Of a stretch of DNA of 64,000 nt, positions 2,631-62,648 are shown one piece after another (position 1 is the stretch's first letter; every line of letters begins with the position of its first letter). The notes below the pieces were generated by a model. The model was not told the DNA's origin and made no database searches. It was given only the letters and a program-made list of their open reading frames with translations. Position numbers and translations under genes: made by a program. The stretch spans positions 1,984,001-2,048,000 of the forward strand of contig NC_088316.1 in the NCBI RefSeq assembly GCF_910592395.1. The letters are read 5' to 3'. The DNA is from Lineus longissimus (taxonomy: Eukaryota > Nemertea > Pilidiophora > Heteronemertea > Lineidae).

Positions 2631-3640
2631 GTCAACCACGATATCGGCTCTCTGGGACATTTGAGAGTGAAAATGGTGCTCAAGAGATGAAGGGTGTATG
2701 TGTATGTATGATCAGAAAGTCCCTGGCCATGCTGACTCAAGTGACTCCTGACTCTCTACAAGGAATTGGTCAACCAAGGTATTGACTCTCTTGGACACTT
2801 GAGAGTGAAAATGGTCTCAAGAGATGAAGGGTGTATGTGTGTGAGTGATGAGAAAGTCCCTGGCCATGCTGACTCAAGTGACTCCGGACTCTCTACAAGG
2901 AATTGGTCAACCAAGGTATTGGCTGTCTTGGACACTTGAGAGTGAAAATGGTGCTCAAGAGATGAAGGGTGCATGTGTATGAATGATCAGAAAGTCCCTG
3001 GCCATGCTGACTCAAGTGACTCCTGACTCTCTACAAGGAATTGGTCAACCAAGGTATTGGCTGTCTTGGACACTTGAGAGTGAAAATGGTGCTCAAGAGA
3101 TGAAGGGTGTATGTGTATGAATGATCAGAAAGTCCCTGGCCATGCTGACTCAAGTGACCCCGGACTCTCTACAGGGAATTGGTCAACCAAGGTATTGGCT
3201 CTCTTGGACACTTGAGAGTGAAAATGGTGCTCAAGAGATGAAGGGTGTATGTGTGTGAGTGATGAGAAAGTCCCTGGCCATGCTGACTCAAGTGACTCCT
3301 GACTCTCTACAAGGAATTGGTCAACCAAGGTTTTGGCTGTCTTGGACAATTGAGAGTGAAAATGGTCTCAAGAGATGAAGGGTGTATGTGTGTGAGTGAT
3401 CAGAAAGTGCCTGGCCATGCTGACTCAAGTGACTATTGACTTGCTGCGTAAGGAATTGGTCAACCAAGGTATTGGCTCTCTTGGACACTTGAGAGTGAAA
3501 ATGGTGCTCAAGAGATGAAGGGTGTATGTGTGTGAGTGATGAGAAAGTCCCTGGCCATGTTGACTCAAGTGACTATTGACTTGCTGCGTAAGGAATTGGT
3601 CAACCAACGTATTGGCTGTTTGGGTGACATGGTATCTGGA
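2631..3640. repeat. 138-bp minisatellite, about 7 copies
   Basis: Repeat starts (gtcaacca) occur at 2631, 2769, 2906, 3044, 3182, 3320, 3459 and 3599, giving a 137-140 bp period. Each unit contains cttgagagtgaaaatgg and gaagggtgtatgtgt. The last two units carry an altered junction (ttgctgcgta). Copies are highly similar, so the array is fairly young. Minus-strand open frames here are periodic by-products of the repeat, not genes. Confidence 0.95.
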
Positions 3641-27000: not shown

Positions 27001-30000
27001 AGCAGTACATGTTGGTGCCTATTTTTTGCCGCAAGAGACGAGTCACAGTTGAAAAGAGGGGATATGTCATGGTGACTATGATGATGAGATAACAGTTTCT
27101 TATCTATGGAAGTTTCATCTTTGAAGTTTTTACAAAATTGAAGTTGGAGCGAAATATTAGCACACTTTTCTGAAAGTTATTGGCAATGTTTTCTTTTTGC
27201 AGATATGGTTTTATCAAAGAGATTATGTCGAAATATAAGGTGAGTCTGACATTTACAGACAAGATAACTTTGAAACTAGGGCTCAAAGTGTAATTTTTAA
27301 TCAGAGTATACAGCCTATAATCAACCTTAGGAAAAATTGCACACTGTTCCTTTCCCTTGAGGATTGATTTCTATTCAAATAGCTGACATTTCTTTAATCT
27401 TTTCATGAGCAGCCTATTCCTTTTTACTCAGGATGAAAAATGTTTATTTTCCATTTGCAGGAACATGCAACAAAAATAGCCCGCCTTTTTGAAGATGTGT
27501 TCAGTTGGTTACCATTGGCGACGGTGATTGACAGCAAGATTCTCGTCTGTCATGGCGGCATCTCGGATCGAACGGACCTGGATATGATACGACTGATCGA
27601 CCGCCACAAATATGCCTCGATCTTGCGGCCGCCATTGACTGACGATGACAGTGAAGATGGATCGCGTGGAGCCACGAGGCAAAAAGTATTGGAGGAGTGG
27701 AGACAGGTTGGAATATTACTCAAAACTACAGAAAGCCTGCAGCACACAATTGACGGCACTATGAAACTATTTCTTTCACTCTTTCAGTGTGGTTATTCTT
27801 TCCAGTTAGTTTGCAGCAATTCCCAGCAGATATACTGGTGTCATTGTGTCTATTTGTTCTAAAACACATGTGTTAAATCTATTGAAAAGCTATTTTGTGT
27901 GTTTTTCTAGGTCCTGGATATCCTATGGAGTGACCCCAAGTCCCAGCCAGGTTGTAAACCCAACACGTTCCGAGGAGGAGGTAGCTACTTTGGCCCGGAT
28001 ATCACGAAGATGGTCTTGCGGAAACACGACTTATCGTTACTCATCAGGTCTCATGAGTGTAAACTTGAGGGCTATGAATTTGATCATGATAACTTGGTAA
28101 GAGTGTGCTCCTGAAGACTGATTTTAGGATAAAAAGTATTCGCATATGACAAACTGAGTTAACGTATACACTAAATTAACATGCGATGATCGGGAAAATT
28201 GATACATGCACTAATTGTCAAGAGGTCTCTAGTTTGATCCCCACTGCCGGCGTGAGACTCTGGGCAGGTCTCTTTGCGTTACATGCCTCACTCCACCCAG
28301 GGCTTAAAATGGTTACCAGTCAGAAGTACTCAGGTTGTAACACTGATTTCAGAGCAGCTCATGTGAGTTCTACTGATAGGTTTCAGCTTAGACTTGGGAA
28401 TAAATGAAAAGTGCTTTAAGAATGTAGTACATTACAAAGCACTTTATAAGAACTTATATTTGTTTATTTGTTTATGTCTGTCTTCTCTTGCTCCAGGTGC
28501 TAACAGTCTTCTCTGCCTCCAATTATTACGAGGAGGGCAGTAACAAGGGGGCCTACGTGAAGTTCGGCACGGACCTCCAGCCCCACCTCATTCAGTATAT
28601 GTCTTCGAAACAAACGGGGAGAAAACTAACCATCACACAAAGGTACAGTAGAATCTCTCTATCAGGGACACCCTCGGGACTGACAAGTGCAGTCCTTCAT
28701 AGAGAAGTGTCCGTATTATATAGCAGTCAAATTTCAAGAATGAGTGTGTCTGAATAAAAATACTTGATAGCCAAAAGGTGGCAGTATCGGCATTCCATAA
28801 CAAAAAACAGAACTGTATTCTACTCTGTAGCGGCTTTAGCTGTACCAGGTCTGTAAGTGTACCACTTTACCTTACCTACATTATACTTGTTTGAATATGG
28901 TACTTGGATAATTTGGTCAGTGCTTTAATAGTTAAACTTGTCGATGTGGTGCTCATTTGAGACAACCTTGCCGAGCGTGAAGCACTGCTGGCGGAGCAAA
29001 CTAGTTCAAACACCTCATGTGGGATCCTTATCTTTGCATTTAGTTCATACTCATTATGATTTCTAACTTTATCATTTTCTGTCTCTGATGATAGGAATGG
29101 GTAATGCCAGCTGATCATCGTTCTCCTAGAAATGAATAGGGTGTCTCGGAGATATTCATTTCATCAAAGTCTCCAATAAATCTAAGTTCTTCGCCCGTCT
29201 CGGAAAGTTCGTATCAAGAAGCTTTTCTGAAGTTGGAACAGGCACATGTCCTGCCTGTGTAAAAGGCCTAAATTTGCAATGAACAGCGTGGTGTCTTTAT
29301 TGAAAATTTGAAATCTGTAATCAAATTTGAAAATTTCCTTCAGGGTTTTTTCTGAAAATTTGTATCGTAGAATTTGATGAAATGAATATTGGGGTACCTT
29401 CTATGTTGTCTGTCTTAAAAACAAACCTATTTAGATGAAGAGAGTTTAGACAAACAAGTAATTAGTATGAGCAGCCCTTAGGCTACTATTGTAACACAAA
29501 ACCTTTCCCTCCGCTACCCCTCACTGCTTTTAACCCCATATACCACATACCACATACCACCTACAGAATTGCAAAACACCTCCACAATCCACATACATAG
29601 TCGATGGGCAGATGATGCCATCCAATAGGACTATCTTAAGTGTAATAATGTTATTGCAAGCAGAAGATACTATCTTGACAACAAAGTTTTTGGGTCGTTA
29701 AGTCACTCATCTGTGGAGCACAATAGCGGTGTTGCTTCATTGCTATTGCTATCACTATCACTTCAAATAATATGAGACTGACTTAAGAAATAGCTTGACG
29801 GAACTTTAACCTGGTCTTCCTGCATAAAAAGGTGAAGAAATGCATTGTACGACAGGGTACTTGTCATCCTAAACTACCTTGGTACGCATGTTACTTGTCA
29901 TCATAAACTACCATAGTACATTTACTTGCCATCATAAACTACCATAGCACCAGTCATCCTAAACTACCTTGGTATGCATATCACGTCATCATAATCTACC

Positions 30001-32795
30001 TTGGTATGCATATCACTTGTCAATCTACCTTGGTGTGCATATCACTTGTCATCATAATCTACCATAGTAGGCCTACTTGTTTGTCATCATAAACTACCAA
30101 GTACTTGTCATCATAAACTACCATAGCACCAGTCATCCTAAACTACCTTGGTATGCATATCACTTGTCATCATAATCTACCATAGTAGACCTACTTGTTT
30201 GTCATCATAAACTACCAAGTACTTGTCATCATAAACTACCATAGCACCAGTCATCCTAAATTACCTTGGTATGCATATCACTTGTCATCATAATCTACCA
30301 TAGTAGGCCTACTTGTTTGTCATCATAAACTACCAAGTACTTGTCATCATAAACTACCAAGTACTTGTCATCATAAACTACCATAGCACCAGTCATCCTA
30401 AATTACCTTGGTATGCATATCACTTGTCATCATAATCTACCATAGTAGGCCTACTTGTTTGTCATCATAAACTACCAAGTACTTGTCATCATAAACTACC
30501 ATAGCACCAGTCATCCTAAATTACCTTGGTATGCATATCACTTGTCATCATAATCTACCATAGTAGGCCTACTTGTTTGACATCATAAACTACCAAGTAC
30601 TTGTCATCATAAACTACCATAGCACCAGTCATCCTAAACTACCTTGGTATGCATTTCACTTGTCATCATAATCTACCATAGTAGACCTACTTGTTTGTCA
30701 TCATAAACTACCAAGTACTTGTCATCATAAACTACCATAGCACCAGTCATCCTAAACTACTTTGGTATGCATATCACTTGTCATCATAATCTACCATAGT
30801 AGGCCTACTTGTTTGACATCATAAACTACCAAGTAATGTCATCATAAACAACGTAACTTCATGGTTTATGAGAAACAGCTTAGTGTGGAACTTTGAGTCA
30901 ATTAGCCCAAAAAATGCTTGATGTGTATTCAGAGTAGGACAAGGGGGATTACCAGGGGAATAATTATCAGGGACACTGCTCCAAGAAATCATTATGTCAT
31001 TTTACCCTGCTGTTATTGTCCCTGACATCTGACAGGTTCAATATTCCCGTCTGATTTCAGACTGTCTAACGTTGAGGAATCTGCAATCCGAGACCTCAGG
31101 GAGAAAATCTGCGCTTACCAGTCACAGCTTGAGGAGGAGTTCAAGAAGTATGACAACAATCACAAAGGTTCGTATGACCCAACCATAGTTACAGTGCAGT
31201 GGTTCACATGCCTTACTGTATAACATTGAGGAGTCTGCAATTCGAGAAGTGTCTTGTTTTTCAATTCCAAACTCATTAGAAATCGGACCCTTTGCAAATG
31301 TTTATAAAGTAAACCTGGTTTTGCTTCATTAAGTATCGTTTTCGCAGCATAAAATTAGGGTTTGCGGTCGTTGTCTGACAGGTTCTGTGCAGTAACACTT
31401 TATTTGATTACATGTATTTCTAGGTCTGATCAAGATTGCAGATTGGTGTACTGCCATGGAAGAGGTGCTATGTTTTAACCTACCGTGGCGCACCCTCCGC
31501 CCGCAACTTGCCAAGGCAAACAAAGCCGGACTCATTCAGTATGCATCCACATTCGAACAGTTCAAGATTAAGAACAAATTCAGCGACGTAAGTATTGATG
31601 GAGGGGCTTCAGCTGGAGCTGTCAATTGGACGAAAACCTTGGCAAGGCAGCTTGGTTTTGGCCTATAAACTCTCCCCTAGTTGTGTTGGGTTAGACAACC
31701 AATACCTCCTGTTCTACATCAGATGGCGCTGAAAGTGTAACACTTGCAGCCCCATCTTTTGGCCAAAAATACCTTCCCCACCAGCCGCTTATTTTCTCTA
31801 AAGGCTTCAACATTAAAACAACAGAAACACCATCTTCAAGATGATGAAGGAACTTGCTCATGCGTTAGAACCAGCTCTAAAGTGATTCTGAATCGGGAGT
31901 TCTATGAGGGGGTCAGGAGTGCTGAAAAGGAGGTCAGTTTGGTTACTTTTGGTCACTTTTCAATTCAATTCATGTTGCAGGGAGGACAGACAGTGACAGA
32001 GGCGTTGTATAGGAACAGAGACAACCTGGAGATGATCTTCAGAGCGATAGACAAAGATAACTCAGGTCAGCTCTCACACTCTCTGGCAAAAACCTCCAAG
32101 GAAAACAGTAATAATCTATGTCTTCTGACATTTGCTAGATATCTTCTTCACATTCTCTCCCAATATGGTCAGTCCTGTTTTTAGTAGTTTTGACTGGATT
32201 GAGTGTTGAGATACGTAATGCCGTGGTTAGGCCCCATGTTTCCACGGCCCAGCACAGCAATTTTGTTGTCATATGAGAGTTTTCGTTCTCCCAGACTGGT
32301 TGCCGGCCAAGACTAAGGAGATCAGTCTCCCCCAGTTTGCAAGATTAACATGATGAGCATGAAAAAACAGTTTAAACAATGTTAGTACTGGTTGCACCTC
32401 AGTCCAATTTCAAAGAGTGAATATCGCAGGTGAAACAATTTATCATACTTCGTTAATTTCTTCCAGGTGTCATCTCGATGGACGAATTTGAAAACGCTTG
32501 TAATGTGCTAAGCCAACACACGGGGGCGCCTCTTCAACAGGAAAGTGTCCACGATCTTGCCAGAAGCATCGACATAAACAAAGACGGATTCATAGACTTT
32601 AATGAATTTCTCGAGGCGTTCCGATTGGTCAATATCGACCATAGGAACAGCCTTACGTTAAGTAAACCAAGTGTGCAATCGGACGGTACGATCGGTGATG
32701 GAACGCCGAGTAAGCAAGGACTGTCACCGACACCGACGAAATCGACACCGTCAATTAGTACGACGGAAGTAGTGATCAACGCCGGCGAGAGATAA
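24049..32795 (+). CDS. PPEF: Ser/Thr protein phosphatase with EF-hands (PPEF/rdgC), 5' exon unresolved
   Basis: Calcium/calmodulin-linked phosphatase; the Drosophila homologue rdgC dephosphorylates rhodopsin. Thirteen exons join in phase: 24049-24176, 24558-24660, 25753-25907, 26301-26462, 26631-26797, 27203-27239, 27461-27706, 27911-28096, 28497-28642, 31061-31167, 31424-31587, 31981-32065, 32467-32795, all GT-AG, about 671 residues. An IQ motif ([20 protein letters not shown]) comes first. Then the PPP catalytic core follows: CGDLHGK, GDFVDRG, RGNHED, HGGIS, IRSHEC and [12 protein letters not shown], so all metal and phosphate-binding motifs are intact. Two C-terminal EF-hand loops follow: DKDNSGVISMDE (split by the last intron) and [12 protein letters not shown]. 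The C-tail is Ser/Thr-rich. Length fits the family (about 650-750). The first exon is missing: it must end one base into a codon. Candidates are 13852-13885, or one nearer 23.5 kb. Read-through upstream of 31981 is open back to 31744, so a longer alternative exon is possible. Confidence 0.95.
25440..25550 (+). mobile_element. Partial tRNA-derived SINE in a PPEF intron
   Basis: ctttccagctcggctggttg, gtaagccaccagct and gcaaactgccttctcaccag closely match the body of the SINE at 63858-64000. The tRNA-like head is mostly missing, so this is 5' truncated. Confidence 0.7.
26162..26251. mobile_element. pogo/mariner-like MITE in a PPEF intron
   Basis: ggacacctctctatcaagga … caagggtatcctgaatagag … tctactgta follows the same family order as the copy at 32886-32972, about 90 bp. 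It shares the ctctctat/gagaggt inverted ends. Confidence 0.7.
26520..26620 (+). mobile_element. SINE 3' tail in a PPEF intron
   Basis: gtgaagcgctttgagtcagt … gtgaaaagcgctgtataagt actcattgttatt matches the tail seen at 28400-28480 and is akin to the LINE tail near 1270-1347. It occupies most of the 168-bp intron 26463-26630 and ends about 10 bases before the splice acceptor. Confidence 0.6.
28225..28480 (+). mobile_element. tRNA-derived SINE with LINE-like tail, in a PPEF intron
   Basis: B-box-like agtttgatcccc at about 28231, then the same body blocks as 3786-4040 (gagactct, caggtctctttg, gttacatgcct, cacccagg, gtcagaagt). The 3' end, aagtgctttaag … aaagcactttataagaactt, resembles the CR1/L2-like LINE tail at 1262-1347. 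Confidence 0.7.
28643..28757 (+). mobile_element. MITE abutting a PPEF 5' splice site
   Basis: Begins gtacagtagaatctctctat directly after the exon end at 28642 and continues cagggacaccctcgggactg acaagtgcagtccttcatag. This is the TACAGTRGAACCTCTCTA terminal repeat of the family at 32886-32972 (opposite orientation). The intron's gt-acag donor is formed by the first bases of the element. Confidence 0.7.
29870..30850. repeat. 118-bp minisatellite in a PPEF intron, about 7-8 copies
   Basis: The marker caccagtcatcct recurs at 118-bp spacing (near 30130, 30248, 30390, 30508, 30626 and 30744). One interval has an extra 24-bp sub-unit (aagtacttgtcatcataaac). Units are built from shorter gtcatcataaactaccat blocks, so a short repeat was amplified into a higher-order repeat. 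It lies in the intron 28643-31060. Confidence 0.93.
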
Positions 32796-35559: not shown

Positions 35560-36712
35560 GCAGATGTCTTCCCATGTCTCAACCAAGCATACTGGTTGTG
35601 ACTTTGTCCTCAAAAGACAAATGATGCAGCAATCAATTTGGTGTATTGAACCTGGATAGGAGAGAGTTAAAGTCTTTCAGTGACTCTACACTAAAGCAGA
35701 CATCTCCCAACATGTCACTCCAGCATATCGGTTGTGATTTCGCCCTTAAAAAAGTGATCAATTTGGCGGGTCAATCTTACAGGGGAGGACACAAGTCTTT
35801 TGATGGAGCTGCCATTGGTGGACATATCCCTACTTCACACCCCAGTGTCCCGGTTGCATCAGAGTAGTGCTTCACATCCAGAGACAACTGTTGCCACAAT
35901 ATCAAAGGAACATCCAAACCCTACCCAGACTTTGGTAAGGGTCCCAACCCAAGCTGGTAAAGATGGAGCAAAACATTATACTGTATATTTGAATGACATG
36001 ACTGGGACTGGACTGACTGAGTGACCTGGATCCTAACTCCTTTCCTTAGGACCCTTCATGCCCTAGGTGGCACATGGGGCGTTCCCCAGGGTCCTCCACT
36101 CAAGTCTGTTGGCTGCTCGCTGTCTGGCTGCCTCCCACGTTAGGCCCTTCTCTTGAAGTTCCTTTGCCATGGAACGCCGCCAGGTCTCTATTTGAATGAC
36201 ATAGGAACATATTTGTGTGTCTTGGTCTCTTGTATGTTCCTTTGACATTGTGACAACAGTTGTCTCTGGATGTGAAGCACTACTCTGAAGCAACCGGGAC
36301 ACTAGGGTGTGAAGTAGGGATATGTCCACTAATGGCAGAGAAGAAGGACAATACATAGTTGTACCCAGGTAGCTCCCAATAAGCTTTCAAGTAGCTTCAC
36401 AACCAGAGCATCTGAGACAGTTGTTACCCTTTCTATTCCACAAGTGTCAGATCTTCTGGAGAGAACAAGGACCCGATATGAAGTATCTCCAAGGTCCTGA
36501 GAAGTGTCACAATCAGAGATGGATATTCCCTCGTCTGACCTTCCCACAAGTGTCACAGCTCATAAATAGAACCCGGACAATAGACAGAAGCAGCCAGGTA
36601 CCTCCCAAGTGGTGTATCACAACCAGAGACCCAGAGACAGCTAATGACCCCTCTTACCATTCCACAAGCGTCAGGTCTGATAAAGACAGGAAGGACGATA
36701 TGCAGTAGCTCC
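35560..36712. repeat. Degenerate tandem-repeat field, left of the LTR element
   Basis: Recurrent blocks (ggttgtgactttgtcct, gacatctcccaacat, ccattccacaagcgtcagg, ataaagacaggaaggac) form irregular 100-130 bp units that resume at 44615 on the other side of the LTR element. An inverted duplication of about 100 bp lies inside: 35812-35912 (tggtggacatatccctactt …) versus 36228-36335 on the opposite strand. Confidence 0.7.
36063..36192 (-). mobile_element. C-terminal fragment of a non-LTR retrotransposon ORF
   Basis: The minus strand reads ETWRRSMAKELQEKGLTWEA followed by ARQRAANRLEWRTLGNAPCA. This matches the C-terminal signature of many RTE-type or related LINE ORF2 proteins (TWRR…E…LTWxxAxxxAxxRxxWR…ALC). 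The piece is short and isolated, between the arms of the 35812/36335 inverted repeat. Confidence 0.6.
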
Positions 36713-36917
36713 TGTGACGGCGACATAATATGGGCGGGCGGGCGCCCCATAGATTGGAGCAAGGTTCGCGGAGTGATACACTGCTTCTTGATGCTGGCGC
36801 GAAACTGTCTACAGTACCTGTTAGGTTTGTGTGTAAATAAAGCCCGTTGTCCGATTCGAGACTTCCCCTTATGAATACCCACAGCAGGAGAGCGTGGCGG
36901 AATATGCAAATTTCACA
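36713..36917 (+). repeat. 5' LTR (205 bp)
   Basis: Starts TGTGACGG and ends TTTCACA, so the ends are the inverted TGTGA/TCACA. Contains gtaaataaagcccg, a likely poly(A) signal (aataaa near 36836). I see no difference from the 3' LTR when comparing base by base. Confidence 0.97.
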
Positions 36918-36918
36918 C

Positions 36919-36932
36919 TGGCGCCCAACGTG
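36919..36932 (+). other. Primer-binding site, tRNA-Lys type
   Basis: TGGCGCCCAACGTG starts two bases after the 5' LTR. It is complementary to the 3' end (CACGTTGGGCGCCA) of metazoan tRNA-Lys(CUU). The match ends after 14 bases. Confidence 0.85.
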
Positions 36933-37330
36933 AAGCAAAAAAACTGAATGCTAGTTCAGAAAAAGGGGATTTTATGATCGAATTTTCGGGAGGCGTTTTG
37001 ATACACATGTAAAAACACACTGTAGTGCAAGCACTGCCGGACGCAATTGTGTATTTGTTTCGGCCCAAACTAAATAATGATTGCATGCATATTACCAAGG
37101 CACTGTAATTTATAACTTAGGGGTTACCAAGTTATTTGATTAGCTGCTTGGCTATGTTTTGGTCTTTAAAACACTGTTTTGGTAGGGTTTTTCCACGGAC
37201 AGTGACGTTCACGTGATCTCGCACACTCCACGGTGTATGGGGTGCCATTCAGGTATTTATTAGTAAAGGGCTGCACATCAAATAAAAATGGGTTTTTCGG
37301 ATTGTATTTCTAGTATATTTTTGTGCAACA

Positions 37331-38086
37331 ATGCCAAGGCAGACATACAGACAGCCGGAGGTCGTTGGAGAGTCCGATAGTGAGGAGGAGGATAGACGAG
37401 TGGTGTTGCTTAAGGAGCCGGAGAGTCCAGCAGACGACGAGCGCTTCGTTGAAGCCCGACAGACTAGGGGCATCCTAGTGTTTGGTGATTCCCTTCTGCG
37501 GAAGTGTGAGACAACGTTACAACACCACGAGGCGGTGGTAAAGTTTAGTGTCCACCCAGGGGGTAAGATCAGGGACATATCCAGCAACATACAGCGCTAC
37601 CTCGAGCATCGACCTGGCCCATTTATTATAGTCGTATGTGTGGGATCGAACGACATCTTTCCGCGAAGAGATTACAGACAGCCACCACCCTGTCCTTACC
37701 TTAGCCAAACCCAGATCAACCACCACTCGCAGCGAGTTCTCACCCCATATGAACGACAAAAAGAACATCTTTTGACCTGCATTAAGGCGCATGACTGCTC
37801 AAATGTGCTAATCTGTTGCACTGTTCCGCCAAGGCTAAATTTAAATGCTGCTGATGTCGATGTTTTCCTGAAAATAAATCAGCACATCAGGCGTGATAAT
37901 TTCAATCAAGGCACACCAACAATTGACATCGAGAGCAGGGTGTCGCGGTATCGAGTCATCAGGGGCCAGGAAGTCTTTCAGTGGGCACGCGTCCAACGCT
38001 TGGACCCGGACGGGATCCATCCCACCCAAGAGACCGCCGAACACTGGGCAACGGAGATACTTCGAATCACGGTCCCTCTGTGTTAA
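37331..38086 (+). CDS. SGNH/GDSL-hydrolase-like ORF ahead of gag
   Basis: 251 residues, ATG in context caacaATGc. After an acidic N-terminus (SDSEEEDRR), residues 46-60 read RGILVFGDSLLRKCE, the block I GDS with Ser54 as nucleophile. HPGGKIRDI around Gly78 fits block II. VVCVGSNDI with Asn107 fits block III. LDPDGIHPTQETAEHW carries Asp227 and His230 of block V. Thus all four SGNH positions and the DxxH pair are present, which suggests a folded and perhaps active esterase-like domain. It lies between the primer site and gag, 136 bp before the gag ATG. An SGNH esterase domain is known in ORF1 of CR1-type non-LTR elements (established). A separate SGNH ORF in a Ty3/Gypsy element is unusual to my knowledge. 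Substrate and role are unknown. Confidence 0.85.
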   Translation: MPRQTYRQPEVVGESDSEEEDRRVVLLKEPESPADDERFVEARQTRGILVFGDSLLRKCETTLQHHEAVVKFSVHPGGKIRDISSNIQRYLEHRPGPFIIVVCVGSNDIFPRRDYRQPPPCPYLSQTQINHHSQRVLTPYERQKEHLLTCIKAHDCSNVLICCTVPPRLNLNAADVDVFLKINQHIRRDNFNQGTPTIDIESRVSRYRVIRGQEVFQWARVQRLDPDGIHPTQETAEHWATEILRITVPLC

Positions 38087-38136
38087 GATGTTGTTGTACG
38101 TGATCCTTTAGTTACACAAGGGGTTTCCTGTGTACT

Positions 38137-38172
38137 AAAAGTAAAAAAAAAAAAACAAAAATTAAAAAGAAA
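38137..38172 (+). other. A-rich tract between SGNH ORF and gag
   Basis: About 50 bases after the SGNH stop codon lies aaaagtaaaaaaaaaaaaac followed by aaaaattaaaaagaaa. It could be a fossil poly(A) tail from retroposed capture of the upstream ORF, or an A-rich leader that helps gag translation. Confidence 0.6.
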
Positions 38173-38222
38173 CCTGTCCATTTATATTCATTAGTTGTTG
38201 CATCTATTTCTAAAAAACAGAC

Positions 38223-39203
38223 ATGGCAGCGGCACGCCCGAAACTCAATGTTTTTTCAGGGGAGTCCTCCGAGGATTTTGTGATGTGGTTTAAGAGGTAT
38301 GAACTCTTTCACCCCCCTGTACCTAACGATGCGGCCGTTGCGGTTCAGAGGCGTCATCAAACGTTGCCTCTATTTCTAACCGGTCGAGCCTTCATGACGT
38401 ATGATACCCTGCCCGCTGCGACCAAGGCTGACTATAACCTGACAAAGCAAGCCCTGAGGGACAGACTCGACCCTCAGGAACATGCCCTCCTGCGCCGCCA
38501 GGAGTTTATGACCCTGGTTCGTAAGTCTGATGAGGCAATCTCAGCATTCGAACTAAGGGTAATACGTAAGGCGGCCACAGCTTTTGCGGATTTTCCCCAA
38601 GCCCAGAGGGATCTCCTGTGTAAGGAGCAATTTATGAGAGGGGTCGGCGAGGCAGAACTCCAACTGCACCTCCTTACACACAACCCGGCCACACTCAGAG
38701 GCGCTGTCCAGCTGGCGGAGCAGTACCTCCAGGTCCGTAAGGTCGGCCTTCCCCAACCGGCGCCTGAGGCCGCCGTCTGCCGAGTACGAGACCAAGAGGA
38801 TGAAGGGGTTCCCTCTCCTCAAGGACAAATTGGCGAGATGGATGCCCTACGCCAGGATGTAAAGAAGTTAACGGAACAGGTTCAGAGTATGATGCTGCAG
38901 CAGCAAGGACGTGGACGTGGCCGTGCACGAGGCAGCCGAGGTAGTCGTCGGGGCAGAGGTGGTCGAGGACAGGATCGGCAGACACAGGGACGGCAGCCGA
39001 ACCACCATGACTACGGTTCACATGATCGTAGATACCATGATGAGGGCAACTCGAGAAATACAGGAGCTCAGGCAAGGGGTTCCCTGCCTGATGCTCAACT
39101 CAATGGGCAGTATAATGACCGCTTCAACGGACACTGCTATAACTGTGGCCAGTACGGCCATAGGAGTGCTGACTGCTGGCAACCCCGGCAGTCGGAAAAC
39201 TAA
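38223..39203 (+). CDS. gag: Gag polyprotein of the Ty3/Gypsy element
   Basis: 326 residues, ATG with a strong context (acATGg). The N-terminal two thirds is a retrotransposon Gag-type helical region: KLNVFSGESSEDFVMWFKRY near residues 7-26, then FLTGRAFMTYDTLP, then LRRQEFMTLVRKSDEAISAF. A Gly/Arg-rich RNA-binding stretch follows (GRGRGRARGSRGSRRGRGG, about residues 229-247). Near the C-terminus is one CCHC zinc knuckle, CYNCGQYGHRSADC. Gag packages the element RNA into cytoplasmic particles. It stops at 39201-39203, and pol continues in the -1 frame. A cag splice-acceptor-like site stands two bases before the ATG. Confidence 0.95.
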   Translation: MAAARPKLNVFSGESSEDFVMWFKRYELFHPPVPNDAAVAVQRRHQTLPLFLTGRAFMTYDTLPAATKADYNLTKQALRDRLDPQEHALLRRQEFMTLVRKSDEAISAFELRVIRKAATAFADFPQAQRDLLCKEQFMRGVGEAELQLHLLTHNPATLRGAVQLAEQYLQVRKVGLPQPAPEAAVCRVRDQEDEGVPSPQGQIGEMDALRQDVKKLTEQVQSMMLQQQGRGRGRARGSRGSRRGRGGRGQDRQTQGRQPNHHDYGSHDRRYHDEGNSRNTGAQARGSLPDAQLNGQYNDRFNGHCYNCGQYGHRSADCWQPRQSEN

Positions 39204-42200
39204 TCTGTGCTGCTGATGAGGGTCGGTCGGCAGCCCGGCATACCAAAAAGACTCAACAAATTATCCCCAGGGTTTTAGTGAGTGTTGGAGATCGGCAAGT
39301 CCCTGTGTTGTTCGACACAGGTGCTGACATCTCACTTATGCGTGACGACGTATGGAGCTTGTATCCCCCAGATGAGAGAGGGCCGTTGGTCCCACGGTCA
39401 ACAGCGATCTGTTCCGTGTCTGGAGACATGTTACCCGTTCAAGGACTGTCTAAAGTCCCAGTCACCCTAGGAGCCCTACGGTTACAACACTCTTTTCGAG
39501 TGGTGAGAGGCATCGATAGCCCTATCATTTTGGGATGGGACTTCATGCTTGAGTATGCCGTGACTGTGAACCCTCAGAAAAAGGAGGTCACCATCCAGGG
39601 TGTCCCTTTCCCACTGCTTGAAGCGGCAAGATTGCCAAATGTCATCACGGCTAGAGCCCTAAAGTCAACAACGATCCCGGGAAGGACTGAGGTGATCATC
39701 CCAGCCTATTTGCCGTATGGCCCCGGATTTCCAAATTTGAGCTATGAGGGTATTCTAGAACCGAACAACCCGCCAGGATTGGTCGTCTCGCGGATAGCAG
39801 CGACAGTGGAGAACTCCCTGATACCTGTTCGAATTATGAATCCGGAGTTCGAGCCTTTAGAAATCGCCAAAGGGATTTGCCTTGGAGATTTCCATTGCCT
39901 GGCTGGAGACCAAGCCAATATGGTGCGACGAACATATGAGCTGATGGAGGAATTCCAGCTCGAAGAGCGAGAAGAAAGAGCTGAGGCAGTCGACAGTGAA
40001 GGGGTTCCCTCCGTCGATCTGTCTGGATGCAAGCTCAAGAAGGGGCAAATGCCACGTTTGAAAACCCTGCTGAAGAAATATAACAACGTATTCAGCAAGA
40101 CTCCAAATGACAGAGGCCTCACGGACCTGGTGGAGCACCGTATCGATACGGGAGATGCACGGCCAATCAAACAGGCAGCTCGTCGACAACCCTTCAACGT
40201 GAGAGACGAGATGGAGGAGCAAGTTGGCGACATGCTTAAGGATGGGGTCGTGGAGCCCTGCTCCGGCCCATGGTCGTCCCCAGTGGTCCTGGTGAGGAAG
40301 AAGACGGGAGCATTCCGGTTCTGTGTTGATTACAGAAAGTTAAATGCCGTTACCAGAAAAGATGCGCATCCGCTCCCTAGGATTGATGATTCGTTGGCGT
40401 CAATGTCTGGGGCGGCTTATTTCAGCAACCTAGATCTGACCAGCGGCTACTGGCAGGTTCCTGTAAACAAGGATCATAGGGACAAGACAGCGTTTTCAGT
40501 GGGTAACAATCTGTACCGATTTACTCGGTTACCATTTGGTCTCTGTAACGCCCCGCCACTTTTCCAACGGATGATGGAACTGGCATTTGCTGGGATGAGC
40601 TGGAGAGTGATGCTGACTTACCTCGATGATCTGGCGATTTTCACCAAGACCTTCGATGAACATCTTGAAGTGCTTGAGGAGGTTTTCAAGAGACTGCAAA
40701 AGGCAGGGTTGAAGCTTCAGCCAAGTAAATGTCACTTGTGTAGGGATCAGATCATCTTTCTTGGACACCACGTGAGTCAGAAAGGCATCAAACCGGACCC
40801 GAATAATATTCAGAAGGTCAAAGACTGGCCTGTGCCGGAAACGGTCAAGCAGGTCCAAAGTTTCGTAGGTCTGGCCTCATACTACCGTAGATTTGTAGAG
40901 GGATTTGCAAAGATTGCTAAACCCCTGATCCAGCTAACGGAGAAAAACACACCCTTCGTGTGGGAGGCAGCCTGCCGGGAGAGTTTTGAGACGCTGAAAC
41001 AGAGATTGATATCACCGCCAATACTAGGGTTTCCCAGATGGGGTGTACCATTCATTCTCCACACAGACGCATCCGATTTTGCAGTGGGATGTGTTCTGAG
41101 CCAGATCCAAGATGGCGAGGAGCGCGCTATCTCCTACCATAGCAAAGCCCTCGGTGCCACAGAAAGAAACTGGTGCACGTATGACAAGGAGTTGTGGGCA
41201 ATTGTCTGGGGTCTCCGGCAAACCCACATCTACTTGTACGGCTCGCAGTTCACCATAGAGACAGATCACAAGCCGTTACTGCAGCGAACCAAACTGCGCT
41301 GGGATGCGGACGTCACCCAAAAGAGGACCAGGTGGATGAACGAGCTCAGTACGTGGGGAGACGTAGAGATTAAATACCGTCCAGGGTTGAAAAATGGGAA
41401 TGCCGATGGCATGAGTCGACGCCATCCTGTGCAGACCAATGAGAAACTGGGGGATGTTATAAAGGCATTATTTGCCTCCCCTCCAAAGGATGATTCACTG
41501 GGGGATTTATTCCCAAAGGAGCCCAGATCTCCGGTGACTGACATTGACAAGGTAGCAAAGGTGACAAAGTCAGGGGTTCCCGCTTGTCCACCTCTTACCA
41601 CAGGCGAGGGTGTTAGAGTAACTTCGCTTACACAATCTGCGGATCCGACCCGACCCGTTGAATCAATCCAGACTCAGCAGGAGTTAGACCCCACCATATC
41701 TCAAGTGTACCGATGGGTCTCAACCACTGATAAGCCCGATTGGGATGCCGTCAAGGACGAAGGACGAGACCTACGGACCTATTGGCGAACATTTGAGGAT
41801 TTGGTAATTAAGGACGCCGTTTTGTTAAAAAAGTGGACCCCTCCCAAGAAGAAACGAGTAATTCTCCAGCAAATCGTGCCACCTGGACTGAGAGCTCAGA
41901 TACTCGAAGAAGTCCACGCAGGTGTAACCTCAGCACACTTCGGGAGGCGCAAGACACTGGCTAAAATGAAGGATCGGTTCTTTTGGCCAGGGCTAGTAAC
42001 TGATGTGGAGGAGTTCTGTCGCACATGCCCTCAGTGCGTTGCTCGGGCTAAACCCAATCCCAAGTTGAAAGCACCTTTACAGAGCATCTCGGCGACCACT
42101 CCTATGCAGTTAGTTGCGACGGATATCACCGAACTACCAGTCACACCCAGGGGTTCCCGGTACTGTCTGGTAATAGGTGATCATTTCACGAAATATGTGA

Positions 42201-43696
42201 ACTTGTACGCGATGAAGGACCAAACGGCTAAAACTGTTGCCGACATTATCTTTCGTCAGTATGTGTGCCAGCATGGGATGCCAGAATCCATCCATTCTGA
42301 TCAAGGGCGACAGTACGAGGCGGACGTTGTTCAGGAGTTGTGCACCATGCTCGGAATTGAGAAGACCAGGACGACTCCATACCATCCGGAAGGGAACGGT
42401 ATGATTGAGAGGTTTAACGAGACTCTGAAGAACCAGATAGCCAAAGTAACAACGGAGCATGGCAAAGATTGGGATCTCCACTTGGGTCCCGTTCAGTTAG
42501 CGTACAACTCCAGTGTACATGAAACCACAGGGCTGACCCCGTTCTTTTTGAACCATGGAAGAGAACCACGCCTTCCAGCGGACGTGGTATACGGCTGTCC
42601 CTCACATGACTACTGGAAGTCCGCTGGGGCGTATTCGAGGAGTGTCCTCCAGGAGCTCCAAGAAGCGTTCAATGAGGCTAGACAAACGGCGGTTGTCAGC
42701 CAGGACCGTCAGAAAAAGGTCTACGACAAATGGGCACGGCACCACCCATACCAGGTGGGTGATAAGGTGTGGCTCCACACCCCAGTCTCCAAGGATCGAC
42801 ACAAGAAGTTGGCCTTGCCCTGGATTGGGCCATACATAGTAGTAAAGCGGATGCAGGCGTCGAACGGGTTACCTGGAGTAACATACCGGATCCAGAGTGA
42901 GGATCCGACGAAAAGACTGCGCATCGTCGTGCATCACAATCGCTTGAAACCGTGCGTACCACCAAGGATTCCAAGACCGTTGGTGAACAAGGACCTCGCC
43001 GATCCACCGGAGGAACCTTTGCCCAAGACCGTTGCACCCCTGCCTCGCCGACACTATCTACCTTTGGGGCCTCTGGTCCCGAGAGGGGGAGGTGGCATTG
43101 TGATACCTGCTGCGCCTGTACCGCACCCACCAGCACTCCCACAGGCCCAGGTAGACCACGGTCATGTAGGAGCGGAACCTGTGGACGTCGAGGGTTTACC
43201 CGACGCTGCCCAGGCTCCCGACGAGCAAGAACTTGCTGGTGCCCAAGAACCTGACGCTGACATGGGGTTACCTGCAGCTCAGCCTCTTGAGGCACCCATA
43301 GAAGAAACTGAAACAAACGAAATGGAACTAGGAGTTCCCGATAATGCTCTGCTTCCCCGGGAGATACCAGCTGATGCTGCCGGAGAAGATGACATTGTCG
43401 AGGACGAACTGAGCGATGATGAGATATTAGCATTGCTTGACGCTGACCAACAAGAGGAGGACAATGATCCTGAACCGGCAGCGGAGTTTTTTGATGCCCA
43501 TGATCGACTCCCTCGTGATTTGGAGGATGATGCCGATTTGCAGCGTGACCAGCCGGAGGCTGATCTAATTCTGCCTGGTGAAAGGGAGGATGCAGCGCCG
43601 GAACCGACAGTCACTAGAGGCGGACGTTCAACGAAGACGCCGACTTACCTCCAGGATTACGTGAGGAATGTGAATTTACGTTGGACTTATTCATAG
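39173..43696 (+). CDS. pol: Pol polyprotein of the Ty3/Gypsy element
   Basis: Open without a stop from 39173 and overlapping the gag end by about 30 bases in the -1 frame. The first in-frame GTG is at 39278, but expression by gag-pol frameshift is more likely. Numbered from 39278, domains in order are: aspartic protease (LFDTGAD, Asp13), reverse transcriptase (FCVDYRKLNAVT; catalytic YLDDLAIF near 448), RNase H (HTDASDFAVGCVLS), integrase zinc finger (HHCC: HAGVTSAHF … CRTCPQC), integrase core DD35E (ATDIT near 949, SDQGRQ near 1008, MIERF), and a GPY/F module (WIGPYIVVKRM). The final approximately 230 residues are Pro/acid-rich, ending in a TKTPTYLQDYVRNV motif common at Gypsy Pol ends. All catalytic residues I checked are present. 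Confidence 0.97.
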   Translation: MLATPAVGKLICAADEGRSAARHTKKTQQIIPRVLVSVGDRQVPVLFDTGADISLMRDDVWSLYPPDERGPLVPRSTAICSVSGDMLPVQGLSKVPVTLGALRLQHSFRVVRGIDSPIILGWDFMLEYAVTVNPQKKEVTIQGVPFPLLEAARLPNVITARALKSTTIPGRTEVIIPAYLPYGPGFPNLSYEGILEPNNPPGLVVSRIAATVENSLIPVRIMNPEFEPLEIAKGICLGDFHCLAGDQANMVRRTYELMEEFQLEEREERAEAVDSEGVPSVDLSGCKLKKGQMPRLKTLLKKYNNVFSKTPNDRGLTDLVEHRIDTGDARPIKQAARRQPFNVRDEMEEQVGDMLKDGVVEPCSGPWSSPVVLVRKKTGAFRFCVDYRKLNAVTRKDAHPLPRIDDSLASMSGAAYFSNLDLTSGYWQVPVNKDHRDKTAFSVGNNLYRFTRLPFGLCNAPPLFQRMMELAFAGMSWRVMLTYLDDLAIFTKTFDEHLEVLEEVFKRLQKAGLKLQPSKCHLCRDQIIFLGHHVSQKGIKPDPNNIQKVKDWPVPETVKQVQSFVGLASYYRRFVEGFAKIAKPLIQLTEKNTPFVWEAACRESFETLKQRLISPPILGFPRWGVPFILHTDASDFAVGCVLSQIQDGEERAISYHSKALGATERNWCTYDKELWAIVWGLRQTHIYLYGSQFTIETDHKPLLQRTKLRWDADVTQKRTRWMNELSTWGDVEIKYRPGLKNGNADGMSRRHPVQTNEKLGDVIKALFASPPKDDSLGDLFPKEPRSPVTDIDKVAKVTKSGVPACPPLTTGEGVRVTSLTQSADPTRPVESIQTQQELDPTISQVYRWVSTTDKPDWDAVKDEGRDLRTYWRTFEDLVIKDAVLLKKWTPPKKKRVILQQIVPPGLRAQILEEVHAGVTSAHFGRRKTLAKMKDRFFWPGLVTDVEEFCRTCPQCVARAKPNPKLKAPLQSISATTPMQLVATDITELPVTPRGSRYCLVIGDHFTKYVNLYAMKDQTAKTVADIIFRQYVCQHGMPESIHSDQGRQYEADVVQELCTMLGIEKTRTTPYHPEGNGMIERFNETLKNQIAKVTTEHGKDWDLHLGPVQLAYNSSVHETTGLTPFFLNHGREPRLPADVVYGCPSHDYWKSAGAYSRSVLQELQEAFNEARQTAVVSQDRQKKVYDKWARHHPYQVGDKVWLHTPVSKDRHKKLALPWIGPYIVVKRMQASNGLPGVTYRIQSEDPTKRLRIVVHHNRLKPCVPPRIPRPLVNKDLADPPEEPLPKTVAPLPRRHYLPLGPLVPRGGGGIVIPAAPVPHPPALPQAQVDHGHVGAEPVDVEGLPDAAQAPDEQELAGAQEPDADMGLPAAQPLEAPIEETETNEMELGVPDNALLPREIPADAAGEDDIVEDELSDDEILALLDADQQEEDNDPEPAAEFFDAHDRLPRDLEDDADLQRDQPEADLILPGEREDAAPEPTVTRGGRSTKTPTYLQDYVRNVNLRWTYS

Positions 43697-44395
43697 GAAG
43701 TGCCAGCTGGATGTATACGAACATCTTTTACTTTTTAGTGATTCTGCCTGGAATTAAGTGATTTCTACTTAGCGTTTTAAGAGACTACTTTTGCGCCGCA
43801 TGTTATGACCTATACTTTGGACGTACTAGTATACGGTCTAATGTCTCTCGTGTTCAGAAAATGACCCATAATGTTACCCATAATGTATCCGAATTCAATG
43901 GAAGCGAATTACCCTTCAGAGACTTATAGGACTGATGTGTTTTGCATATCCAAACGTATTTGACTCCAGTAAAATGTGTGGCTATGACTCCCCAGAGACG
44001 AATGGACTGAATGGTCGAGCACACGAATTTCCGTAGTTTAGTTACATAGTTAAAGTTTTTTGATTTTATAAAATTCTGGATTAACAGGCGCTACGGGCTT
44101 ACTTAGCTCGAGCTAGTACTTCGTTATCTCAGGTAACATAGGTTAAATTGTCCACTCCTCCACCTGCTCTGAATTTTGGGAGCTGCCTGCGCCTATTTTT
44201 TAGTGTTAGCTATGGTACGGTACCTTAGGTTTCACTGGTATAACCCACCGCCTAGTCTCATAAGCAGGAGGCTTGACTTAGCGGATGATTGGCTCTCCGT
44301 GCTTGGCCAGCACGTGGATTTGAGCCTAAGCCCTCCTGCAGATCTGCGGAGAGTAATATGTATTGTAATATTGTCGATGTGGGGCACATCTCCTC
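43697..44395 (+). other. 3' untranslated interior of the LTR element
   Basis: About 0.7 kb after the pol stop with no env or other ORF of note. The longest open frame runs into the LTR and lacks any motif. Confidence 0.7.
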
Positions 44396-44405
44396 AAAGG
44401 AGGGA
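44396..44405 (+). other. Polypurine tract
   Basis: aaaggaggga ends four bases (cgta) before the 3' LTR. It is the likely plus-strand primer. Confidence 0.75.
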
Positions 44406-44409
44406 CGTA

Positions 44410-44614
44410 TGTGACGGCGACATAATATGGGCGGGCGGGCGCCCCATAGATTGGAGCAAGGTTCGCGGAGTGATACACTGCTTCTTGATGCTGGCGCGAA
44501 ACTGTCTACAGTACCTGTTAGGTTTGTGTGTAAATAAAGCCCGTTGTCCGATTCGAGACTTCCCCTTATGAATACCCACAGCAGGAGAGCGTGGCGGAAT
44601 ATGCAAATTTCACA
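44410..44614 (+). repeat. 3' LTR (205 bp)
   Basis: TGTGACGG … TTTCACA, the same length as and apparently identical in sequence to the 5' LTR. Followed by ctcc, matching the four bases before the 5' LTR. Confidence 0.97.
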
Positions 44615-46500
44615 CTCCCAATTAATTTCCAAGTAGCTTCACAACCAGGACATCTGAGACTGACCCCTCTTACCATTCCACAAGCGTCAGGTCTGATAAA
44701 GACAGGAAGGACAATGCGCAGTAGCTCCCAATCAACTTCCAAGAAGCTTCATAACCAGGACATCTGAGACTGGCCCCTCTTACCATTCCACAGGGGTTAG
44801 TTCTGATAAGGACGATACACAGTACTTCCCAGGTTGTGCCCAGGTACCTCCCACAAGTACTTACACAACTAAAACAACAGAGGCAGCCGTTATCCTATCT
44901 GCCTATTTCAAAGTGTCAGATCTTATGAAGAGAACAAGGACTCAATATGAAGTAGTACCAAGATAAAGCTTAATCTAACCAGATAAGGTTGGCTGTGACT
45001 TTGTCCTGAACCAGGGCATTCAGGCTGTGACTTGTCCTGAAGACAACTTTGAGGAAATCAATGCCCGGTGTAACAGCTAGTGTTGTCCCCCATCTCCTGA
45101 CATCTTACACCAGCATTCAGGTCGAGTCTTTGTCCCGACAAGAACTTGGGCAGATATGGAGGTTAGCGTCCATCACCCATCATCTTTACCCTGCCATTGT
45201 GGTTGTGACATTTGCCAGGAATTTAGCGTAGCCAGCCTGGACGGGACAGCCTTGTTAGTGGAGCTGTCCCCAGAAGACACTTCCCCACATATTTCGTCTG
45301 CATTCTGGTTGTTACTTTGTCCTGAAGACAAACTGGCTAGTGATCAATATCAAATAGCCAGACACGGTAGGAGAGTGTGCAAGTCTCTCATTGGTCCCAC
45401 CCTCAGCGGAAATCTCTCTGGGTTTTTACGTTGTCCTGAAGACATACTGGCTTGTAATCAAAATGGCATTGCTAGCCTGGGAAGGATAGCCTGCAAGCTT
45501 CTCATTGGATCCGTCCTGAGCGGAATCTCCCATCAGTTTACCACAGCAATGTGGTTGAGACTACGTCCTGAAGACAACTTTGCCTGGATCAGTCAGTTTG
45601 ACAAGTTGCCTGGGCAGGAGAGACCATAGCCTTTCTCAACAACAGCCCTTGGTGGACATCTCCCCCACAACATTTCGGTTGTGACATGCTGGCCTGTGCA
45701 GGAAAGCCATTTCTGTGGACCTGGTCCCAGCAGACATCTCCCCACATCCAACCCAAACATTTTGCTTGTGACTTGTCCTCAAAGGCCATTTCGTGAACCC
45801 ACCCTCAGCAGACATCACCCAACACCTCACATGTACACAAATGTTGTTGTGACATTGAAGACAAATTTGAAAGGAAGTAATTTGGCAAAGACAGCCTGTT
45901 TAGGACTGCTGTTTTTGTGGATCGTGCCTCAGCAGACATCTCCACTTTCAACCCAAGCATTCTGCTTGTGACTCTGCCCTCAAAAGAGGAATTTGCCAGT
46001 TATCAATTTGGCATACTTTGCCTGGGCAGGAGAGTGTATATGCCCCTTAGTTGACCCATATCTTATCCCAGCATTCTGGATGTGACTTAATTCGTCCTAA
46101 AGACAAATTTGCCTGGGCAGGAGAGACCATGGCCTTTCACAGAGACAACTCCCCACATCCTACACCAGTATTCTGGTTGTGACTTTGTCCTGAAGACAAA
46201 TTTGCAGAATATCAATATGGCAGTCAGCCTGGCAGGAGAGCTCTCAGCCTCATCAGTGCACACACCCTGAACCATCCTGAGATTCAGGTTTTTGATACTC
46301 TTATCTCATAAACAACATGTTTGAAATATCAAGAGGCCGAGTATATTGAAAACTATCGATACCAGGATGACCCTGAAAATGGACATTTTTGTAATTCCTA
46401 CACTAGCCTTCTGGTTGTGACTTTGTCCTGAAGACAAAATTTGCAAGAAATCAATTTAGCAGAGAAGCCTGGTCAGGTCAGCCCTATCAGTGTAACCACC
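44615..46500. repeat. Degenerate tandem-repeat field, right of the LTR element
   Basis: The first part repeats an approximately 118-bp unit (cccctcttaccattccacaa … cagtagctcccaatcaactt …). From about 44990 a second, very degenerate unit of roughly 100-130 bp recurs: ggttgtgactttgtcctgaa, gacaaatttgc, cctgggcaggagag, agacatctccccacatc. Units differ by indels and no frame is conserved, so this is an old minisatellite-like field rather than a gene. Confidence 0.75.
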
Positions 46501-60200: not shown

Positions 60201-62648
60201 TCTCATGAATATCGTCTTTCATTTGATTTTTCTCCATCCTTCAGGATCTCAAAAATTCTACGTGTGGTGCCTTAAAAGAGTTTAAGTTTCCCGTCATCAG
60301 GTCTGGCCGTCTGGACGCCATCGCCATGTGGTTCGACCTCAAGTTGGACACAGATGTTACATTCTCTACAGCGCCAGACTCCCCGACCTGCTGGGAGCAG
60401 GCGGTCTTCCCGATATTACATCATCATTTGGCTGCAGCAGGTAAGGTTGTGACGGAAATGACTTGTGCATTTTTAAAGGGATAACTGGGGACCAGGAGGA
60501 TAATACTTCTGCTTTCCACTATGTGCCACCACGTGTCATGTTCTGCTGATGCTGATCTCCAATTATGACTTCTGCCAGTGTTGGGAGGCAAATATTTGAC
60601 ATGGCTTGTGAATTTCAGGTTGGCCTAACTCTAAAGAATGTGCAGTGCAACTTCCTTCGTAACATCACAGAGTCCTTTCTAAGTCTCCGTCACGTCGATT
60701 TCTGTTGAACTTTTCAGGAGTAGGACACCGCGAAAACATGACTGTCAAGCCTGACGACGTCGCAATCATCGTGTCCCAGTGCCTTGAAGACCACATCGAA
60801 CTACGCTGCTGTCACATTCACCACCACGACCCATCGAACGAGACCAGCATCGACACGGACAGCATCGAGCAGATCACCGAAGCCTTCCTCGCAATGAGTC
60901 CGACAAATTACGACAATGAAACGCACAAATCTATGCATTTCTTGGAGCGTTCGGTCATGGGGTGTCTGAATAATTTACGAATGAACACGGCATACTGCAT
61001 GGCCATGGAGACTTTGAAAGCAAAAAATCACGCCCGTTTACAACTTTTTGATCTGAATTCTGGTTTCTCACCTTTGGGATTACAAGCCTTGAAGTTGGGG
61101 TTCTTGCACGTGTTTCTGATGAGTGACGAACACCGAATGCTCCTCAGTGCGATTGCGGAGGGGAATAAGATCTCCATGGATCAAGTGACGTTCACCGGAC
61201 GGAACTTTGACGAATTGGGGATAAACTGTGATATTATCTTGAGTGAGATCGTAGAGCCGTGTGGTGCGTTAAGGCAGCAGGTTCTGGAGGATGTGGCCTT
61301 GGCAAGGTTGGTGTAGTTTGGTAGTGGGTGTCTGAGAATCGGGAGGACAGGGGTTCTAGTCACCTTCTTCTCCTGGTTGAGGCCAACTTAGCACTTGTAC
61401 CTAACTACTGTACTACTGAATGTGCTTTTTATGACAATCTCAATTGTTGTGAGTTTCTTAAACTTCCGGTAAGATCTTTTTAGTTGATGCCAAAAGCTTT
61501 TTAAAAATTTTTACAGAAAATGAAATTTGTTTTTCAACAATGGATAACTGTGTTTTTGACCCAAAAGTTTTAAAGGATTTTTTTGGATTTAACAAAAAAT
61601 TGCTCCCTAATTCCTCGGAAATTGTGCAAAAATGGCATTTTTTACAGTGTACTACTCTGTTTATTTTCAGGCTCCAGTGTATGGATCGTGAAGGCCACGT
61701 GGTCCCGAACCAAGTGACAGCCTATGGTATGGTCATTGAGTCCCAGAGCCTTCTTCAGGATAGTCAAGTCAAGGACGGAGATGCCACAACCCTAGGGCTC
61801 GAAGTTGCAAAATTCATGAACGATTTTCAGGTAAATACCTATCAGATTCTTGTGCCATTATAGTTTACATGTTGCTATGGTGTAGCACAGTATTATCAGT
61901 TAAAACTGTCCACTCACAGTTATTCTGTTATAGTCTGAGATCCCCAAAATCAGGCTGAACACAGAAGAAGTCATTGGACTCCACTGAAGAATTGTTTTAC
62001 TTGATTAGCAAACCCCTTCCTGGGAAATTGTATTGGGTCCCAAAATTAGATTTAAGGAAGACGAAACTTTGAAGAAATCTGACTAGTATAGTAGTTTATG
62101 CACAGTGGCTCAAAAGAACCTTGATATTTTACCCTTTGACTCTAGGAAAAACGTCTCAAGAGTCATCAGAAAATCTAGAATCACGCTTTCTGTTTCTGGT
62201 TTACACTTTTTCACTGAGGGTTTACACATTGCTAGACTTGAGGGTAGACAATGAGAAGACAGTCTTGTATTTATTTGTCGGTTTTTCATTCCAGATGACC
62301 ACGCACGTCGACATCGACCTTCTTACGTTACCTCACACAAGACTCACCGCGCCTTTCAAGTTACTCACGCTCAACCTGAACGAGAAGTCCACCAGGAACG
62401 TACCGTCATTTCTGGAACAGGAGAACTTGCACAAAGTGGAAGTCATCAAAGATGGCCGTGCCACTGCTGTCCTCTACTGGTTTGATTTCACGCTGATTGA
62501 TAACATCAAGCTTTGCACGCTCGATACGGATTCACATTGGAAACAGGCCGCCGTTATGGTGAAGACGACGAAAGTCTTGAAAACTGGCGATAAGTTGTCT
62601 GTGCGGGTGATTCTTAAAAACAGTTGTATCGATATTAAGTTAGAGTGA
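57217..62648 (+). CDS. PRMT9: Protein arginine N-methyltransferase 9
   Basis: Nine exons: 57217-57524, 57866-58102, 58616-58783, 59141-59314, 59811-59991, 60245-60440, 60718-61306, 61671-61830, 62295-62648. All join in phase with GT-AG ends, giving 788 residues (human 845). The N-terminal TPR region (about residues 15-145: AEECWTSQNYGRAFAHFLLV, ALRIDPDFLGA) precedes methyltransferase domain 1: motif I VLDIGAGTGLL (about 170-181), the acidic SAM-binding motif ACEMSKPMYE, and the double-E loop VVTETVDAGLLGEHIV (about 242-257). Domain 2 is degenerate (LFDLNSGFSPLGLQALKLG, SEIVEPCG) and lacks GxGxG. Human PRMT9 makes symmetric dimethylarginine on SF3B2, a splicing factor. The ATG is directly preceded by an acceptor-like attgtag, so a 5' UTR exon may lie upstream. 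Exon 7 uses a weak donor (gttggt). Confidence 0.95.
58083..58216 (+). repeat. 67-bp tandem duplication over the PRMT9 exon 2 donor
   Basis: gggactgggttattgaggta aata(g)gtttggaacttttgacta … cttggg occurs twice, at about 58086-58147 and 58153-58215. The first copy contains the functional exon end at 58102. The second lies in the intron with an intact ag/gtaaat donor. Confidence 0.9.
58850..59085 (+). repeat. About 33-bp minisatellite in PRMT9 intron 3
   Basis: Repeated cttcactctttcttggagtg aaaatagttt units, about seven diverged copies. Confidence 0.85.
59685..59760 (+). mobile_element. tRNA-like SINE head in a PRMT9 intron
   Basis: aggggccgtggctcacatga resembles an A-box context, and catgggttcaaggcta at about 59728 is a B-box-like match. 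Pairing does not make a functional tRNA. Likely a SINE fragment. Confidence 0.4.

Follow-up and report, generated by a model that had tools for sequence, protein, structure and literature searches.

A Ty3/Gypsy retrotransposon of Lineus longissimus carries a predicted SGNH esterase gene upstream of gag

We analyzed a 64,000-nucleotide stretch of the genome of the nemertean Lineus longissimus (contig NC_088316.1, positions 1,984,001 to 2,048,000; hereafter the window, by whose numbering all coordinates are given). A complete Ty3/Gypsy long terminal repeat (LTR) retrotransposon occupies positions 36713–44614 and consists, in order, of LTR, primer site, an open reading frame (ORF) of 251 amino acids (aa), gag, pol, and LTR. 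The 251-aa ORF (37331–38086, plus strand), which stands alone 5′ of gag, was assigned to the SGNH hydrolases from its motifs, weak profile matches, and predicted fold. An earlier note, written from the sequence alone, had described an SGNH-hydrolase ORF in a young Ty3/Gypsy retrotransposon, behind the primer site and ahead of gag; both the ORF and this placement were borne out.

Architecture of the element

The two LTRs (36713–36917 and 44410–44614, plus strand) are 205 bp long, run from TG to CA, and are identical to each other, with AATAAA at 36836 in the 5′ copy. They are flanked by the identical four-base target-site duplication CTCC (36709–36712 and 44615–44618, strand not applicable). 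Inspection of the sequence revealed a primer-binding-site-like stretch, TGGCGCCCAACGTG, one base past the 5′ LTR (36919–36936, plus strand), which we take to resemble the complement of tRNA-Lys(CUU), and purine-rich AAAGGAGGGA just 5′ of the 3′ LTR. Thus, LTRs, primer site, polypurine tract, and target duplication, as expected of a Ty3/Gypsy element, were all found. The element is hosted by a repeat of ~110 bp, several copies of which lie on either side (36369–36712 and 44615–44813). After removal of the element and one CTCC, the joined flanks matched the neighboring repeat unit at 44669–44788 in 112 of 120 positions with no gap, indicating that the ends of the element are exact. The identity of the LTRs over 205 bp suggests a young-looking element that would have been inserted recently. 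Apart from the two LTRs, no second copy of five pieces of the element was found within the window at E ≤ 1e-3, and no tRNA or Rfam family was detected within the window at gathering score.

The gag gene (38223–39203, plus strand; 326 aa) encodes a CCHC zinc knuckle and matched PF00098 at 24.2 bits (cut-off, 20.8). The open pol frame (39173–43696, plus strand) lies at −1 relative to gag and overlaps it at 39173–39203. Its Pfam matches follow the Ty3/Gypsy order of reverse transcriptase (RT; 339–499), RNase H (562–691), and integrase (867–1037). A DTGA protease motif and a GPY/F-like GPY were read by eye; for the aspartic protease expected in the first part of pol, the best Pfam match (E 0.056) was below cut-off. 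The only plus-strand ATG ORF of at least 100 aa that starts between pol and the 3′ LTR (44212–44571; 119 aa, with 162 bp inside the LTR) showed neither a Pfam match nor a clear transmembrane stretch, and env is therefore not recognizable.

The 251-aa ORF as a predicted SGNH hydrolase

None of 2000 dinucleotide-preserving shuffles of 36918–38222 produced an ATG ORF as long as the 251-aa ORF (mean 81, maximum 199), which argues that 37331–38086 is coding sequence. The catalytic set comprises S54 (FGDSLL), G77, N107 (GSND), and D227 with H230 (DGIHPT), and the Ser, Asn, Asp, and His residues are those given in the earlier note. For the oxyanion glycine, the alignment makes G77 more likely than the G78 named there, as G77 is common to all five aligned rows and the next residue is Ala in all four kin. 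The catalytic residues are kept in the kin rows that cover them, the kin being only 32–47% identical to the window ORF, and catalytic activity is predicted. This conservation bears on whether the SGNH fold might instead serve binding, the protein being a particle adaptor for RNA or protein comparable to the OSK domain of Oskar. OSK is stated to be non-catalytic (PMC3905857), whereas Ser, Gly, Asn, Asp, and His are all retained here, and we consider such an adaptor very unlikely.

The window ORF matched PF00657 and PF13472, the families against which the earlier note had proposed to check it, below their cut-offs. That note had also named the fold beforehand as one point on which its reading could fail, and structure prediction returned an SGNH fold. 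The best structural matches were acyl and acetyl esterases, including sialate O-acetylesterases and platelet-activating-factor acetylhydrolase. In a viral structure library, the best 50 of 615 rows were mostly bacteriophage esterases, indicating that the SGNH fold is common and nothing more. At E ≤ 0.001, a single solved protein was matched by sequence, namely the esterase encoded by ORF1 of ZfL2-1, a non-LTR element of zebrafish (PDB ID: 4c1b). The 251-aa protein contains no transmembrane-like stretch (maximum 19-residue hydropathy, 1.28), and its N-terminus is acidic (7 basic against 13 acidic among the first 45 residues) and disordered in the model. The product is predicted to be a soluble esterase.

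Such structural matches would also be expected of an active SGNH esterase that removes a small acyl or acetyl mark, rather than acting on bulk lipid, and thereby tunes localization or evades silencing; palmitoyl groups on Gag or host proteins and acetyl groups on glycans or defense factors would be candidate targets. Depalmitoylation and deacetylation were likewise considered for ZfL2-1 (PMC3905857). However, binding to acidic lipids and to liposomes is reported for the ZfL2-1 esterase, which is the closest relative of solved structure (PMC3905857). We regard this activity as somewhat unlikely.

Kin of the SGNH ORF and of gag

A single-sequence search with the SGNH ORF returned two proteins at E ≤ 0.001, and a three-row profile returned five at E ≤ 0.01. 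P0001–P0004 are stand-alone proteins of the same family (45, 47, 32, and 32% identical to the window ORF, respectively) that share a common length, start, and end. The start MPRQxYR of the window ORF recurs in P0003, supporting the assigned start codon. P0005 (E 2.3e-4), which has N-terminal cysteines and a coiled-coil-like stretch, looks like a CR1-type ORF1 and was excluded from alignment A2. The gag search returned 10 proteins, the best of which was P0006. As P0006 and the best SGNH kin, P0001, carry the same source code and are each listed with one 3441-base contig, the two genes would lie in a single contig. The SGNH ORF and gag therefore likely travel together as a pair, which, with the conserved kin, supports the proposal of the earlier note that the ORF moved with the element. 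We consider it highly probable that the element carries this ORF as an SGNH gene. Resolution was low in both the gag tree (5 of 8 inner branches open) and the SGNH tree (2 of 3), which we read for nearest kin only; in the gag tree, P0006 joined P0007 and P0008 rather than the window sequence (88/89, open).

These kin also bear on a recent passenger, that is, a roleless SGNH sequence of host or CR1 origin present in this copy alone. In favor of such a capture, the closest relative of solved structure is the ORF1 esterase of a non-LTR element, P0005 resembles the ORF1 of CR1-type elements, and the SGNH ORF is followed by an A-rich stretch. On the other hand, a stand-alone family of equal length, start, and end at 32–47% identity, with one member likely beside a matching gag, would not be expected of such a fragment, and we do not favor a recent passenger or a nested CR1 fragment, giving the passenger little credence. 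The CR1/L2 layout, with an endonuclease-RT ORF2 next and no LTR, was not found, the element having LTRs, gag, and integrase. Compared with the N-terminal coiled coil/PHD region of CR1/L2 proteins by inspection of sequence and model, residues 1–43 were acidic and of low model confidence.

In searches of contigs, A1 gave 131 pattern-matching stretches in viral contigs and 51 in genome contigs, with none confirmed. The RT region gave two stretches in viral contigs, with none confirmed, and 16 in genome contigs, with one weak locus. This locus (L001, 8001–8222) is a short RT-like stretch, 31% identical to pol, on a contig filed under an Oscillospiraceae metagenome-assembled genome. Part of pol gave no match to plasmids.

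Translation of gag behind the SGNH ORF

The arrangement raises the issue of how gag would be reached. Twelve ATGs precede the SGNH ORF from the start of the LTR, and the ATG and ORF listing places eight ATGs of short ORFs in the leader (36937–37330, plus strand); eight out-of-frame ATGs follow from the start of the SGNH ORF to the start of gag. No splice donor matching at least six of seven consensus positions was found at 36713–39300 by a simple consensus count, as opposed to a trained predictor. Acceptor-like sites numbered five, including one at 38194 within the pre-gag spacer. With no good donor by this count, splicing is disfavored as a route to gag, and reinitiation, internal entry, or a second promoter would seem likelier. 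In MDG1-group elements, the RNA that carries the two pre-gag ORFs shows no sign of splicing, and peptides from each ORF have been detected (PMC11952523, preprint), indicating that a pre-gag ORF plan can work.

The A-rich spacer between the SGNH ORF and gag (38087–38222, plus strand) contains ATTAAA at 38161, a possible poly(A) site like that between the MDG1 sORFs, although the signal amounts to six letters in an A-rich context; AATAAA hexamers lie at 37281 and 37873 as well. The A-rich part proper (38139–38172) could have been left by RNA capture, act as a translation signal, or consist of simple sequence.

An ORF that precedes gag, with eight more out-of-frame ATGs up to the gag ATG, might also act as a regulatory upstream ORF that restricts or times the translation of gag, with the enzyme in a secondary role. 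The SGNH catalytic set kept across the kin would be needless for such a role, which we consider most improbable.

Other features of the window

Two exon-like ORFs (27437–27862 and 31741–32184, plus strand) matched a calcineurin-like phosphoesterase (24.2 bits; cut-off, 21.5) and gave weak EF-hand matches below cut-off; together they presumably represent a gene resembling PPEF-type phosphatases. A third exon-like ORF (60663–61316, plus strand) had no Pfam match; in sequence comparison with PDB chains it resembled protein arginine N-methyltransferase 9 (E 8.7e-5 to 4.4e-4). Two tandem arrays were found, one of 118-bp units at 29858–30849 and one of 138-bp units at 2631–3617. Adjoining the element, an inverted repeat (35809–35917 and 36230–36338) with 109-nt arms, 94% complementary and 312 nt apart, is possibly a small DNA transposon (35809–36338).

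Discussion

Considering the locus as a whole, we propose, tentatively and as a possibility short of probable, that the predicted soluble SGNH esterase of the element aids Gag particles in assembling on or passing cell membranes. The ORF would be an accessory gene kept by the element, and the cell that produces the particles would translate its protein from element RNA. By analogy with the proposal for the ZfL2-1 ORF1 esterase, the enzyme might bind or cut acyl chains of membrane lipids and thereby help the particles of an element that has no recognizable env to assemble, be released, or pass. A comparable suggestion, membrane penetration, was made for the GDSL ORFs of rotifer LTR elements, the activity of which, according to the authors, is yet to be shown (PMC5408684).

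Several observations weigh against this proposal, the first being that the membrane role is drawn from analogy. The Pfam matches of the window ORF were both below cut-off (21.8 bits against 23.6 for PF00657, a weak match, and 17.2 against 32.9 for PF13472), and two of the four kin, P0002 and P0004, also missed the PF00657 cut-off, which P0001 and P0003 passed. The predicted model is weak off the core, with a predicted local distance difference test (pLDDT) score below 50 at residues 1–43, 206–209, and 213–223. Among 50 pairs of SGNH and gag kin, contig sizes agree only for P0001 and P0006, and four gag kin on contigs of 5989–8107 bases (P0007, P0008, P0011, and P0013) have no size-matched SGNH partner, so that the distribution of the ORF across the clade may be patchy. 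Compared with the window, the linked pair has diverged faster in the SGNH protein (46.6% identity over 232 aligned residues) than in Gag (65.6% over 323 in global alignment; 56% in the search listing), and constraint on the SGNH ORF may therefore be modest. Finally, variation of Vesta GDSL ORFs within a genome appeared mostly neutral (PMC5408684, section 3.6).

SGNH/GDSL ORFs have been published from non-LTR elements, Vesta LTR elements (as ORF3), and Athena Penelope-like elements (PMC5408684). Vesta of bdelloid rotifers (Rodriguez et al. 2017, PMC5408684) resembles the present element in bearing a stand-alone SGNH/GDSL ORF in a gag-pol LTR retrotransposon and, compared by description only, in having intact invariant residues and an unproven function. 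However, the Vesta ORF lies behind pol, and ours lies before gag. In contrast to rotifer lineages with dUTPase (PMC5408684), no dUTPase was present among the Pfam matches of pol at E ≤ 1. ZfL2-1 (CR1/L2/RTEX; PMC3905857) is the nearest solved sequence relative and has the same catalytic set in its first ORF, but its esterase is a domain of a multidomain coiled-coil ORF1 in an element without LTRs and gag. Ngaro tyrosine-recombinase elements also have an extra SGNH ORF of unproven function, although it follows the tyrosine recombinase in elements of a different order (PMC9210276). SGNH genes are likewise carried or mobilized by Athena elements (PMC5408684) and by fish Helitrons (texim; PMC4021074), which belong to other element classes, and the texim genes have introns.

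With respect to position, a parallel is offered by sORF1 and sORF2 of the MDG1 group (PMC11952523), accessory ORFs 5′ of gag in env-less Ty3/Gypsy elements that are present on unspliced RNA and translated, sORF2 being proposed as a membrane factor. Their products are short, at ~110 and ~70 aa, and comprise a helix-turn-helix protein and a fusogen-like protein that spans the membrane, whereas ours is a 251-aa predicted enzyme with no transmembrane stretch. Given the published rotifer GDSL ORF3 (PMC5408684) and MDG1-group pre-gag ORFs (PMC11952523), the finding is less singular than the earlier note implied. Nevertheless, among the matches listed, with subscription journals and Repbase mostly outside the scope, we found no paper on a Ty3/Gypsy element whose gag is preceded by an SGNH/GDSL ORF, and this placement may be new. 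It is a rather improbable extension that an env-less Ty3/Gypsy lineage carries a dedicated pre-gag lipid esterase as its factor for passing membranes, an enzyme that would parallel the MDG1 fusogen independently of any envelope and would have evolved separately from the rotifer ORF3 and long interspersed nuclear element (LINE) ORF1 esterases.

As the copy is young-looking and its ORFs are open, the SGNH protein offers a usable start for biochemical tests. If it is a working accessory enzyme, a further class of retroelement would have acquired SGNH esterases, and in a position new among such elements. Recruitment on repeated occasions would suggest a shared requirement, most likely for handling membranes, that is unexplained by standard gag-pol biology.
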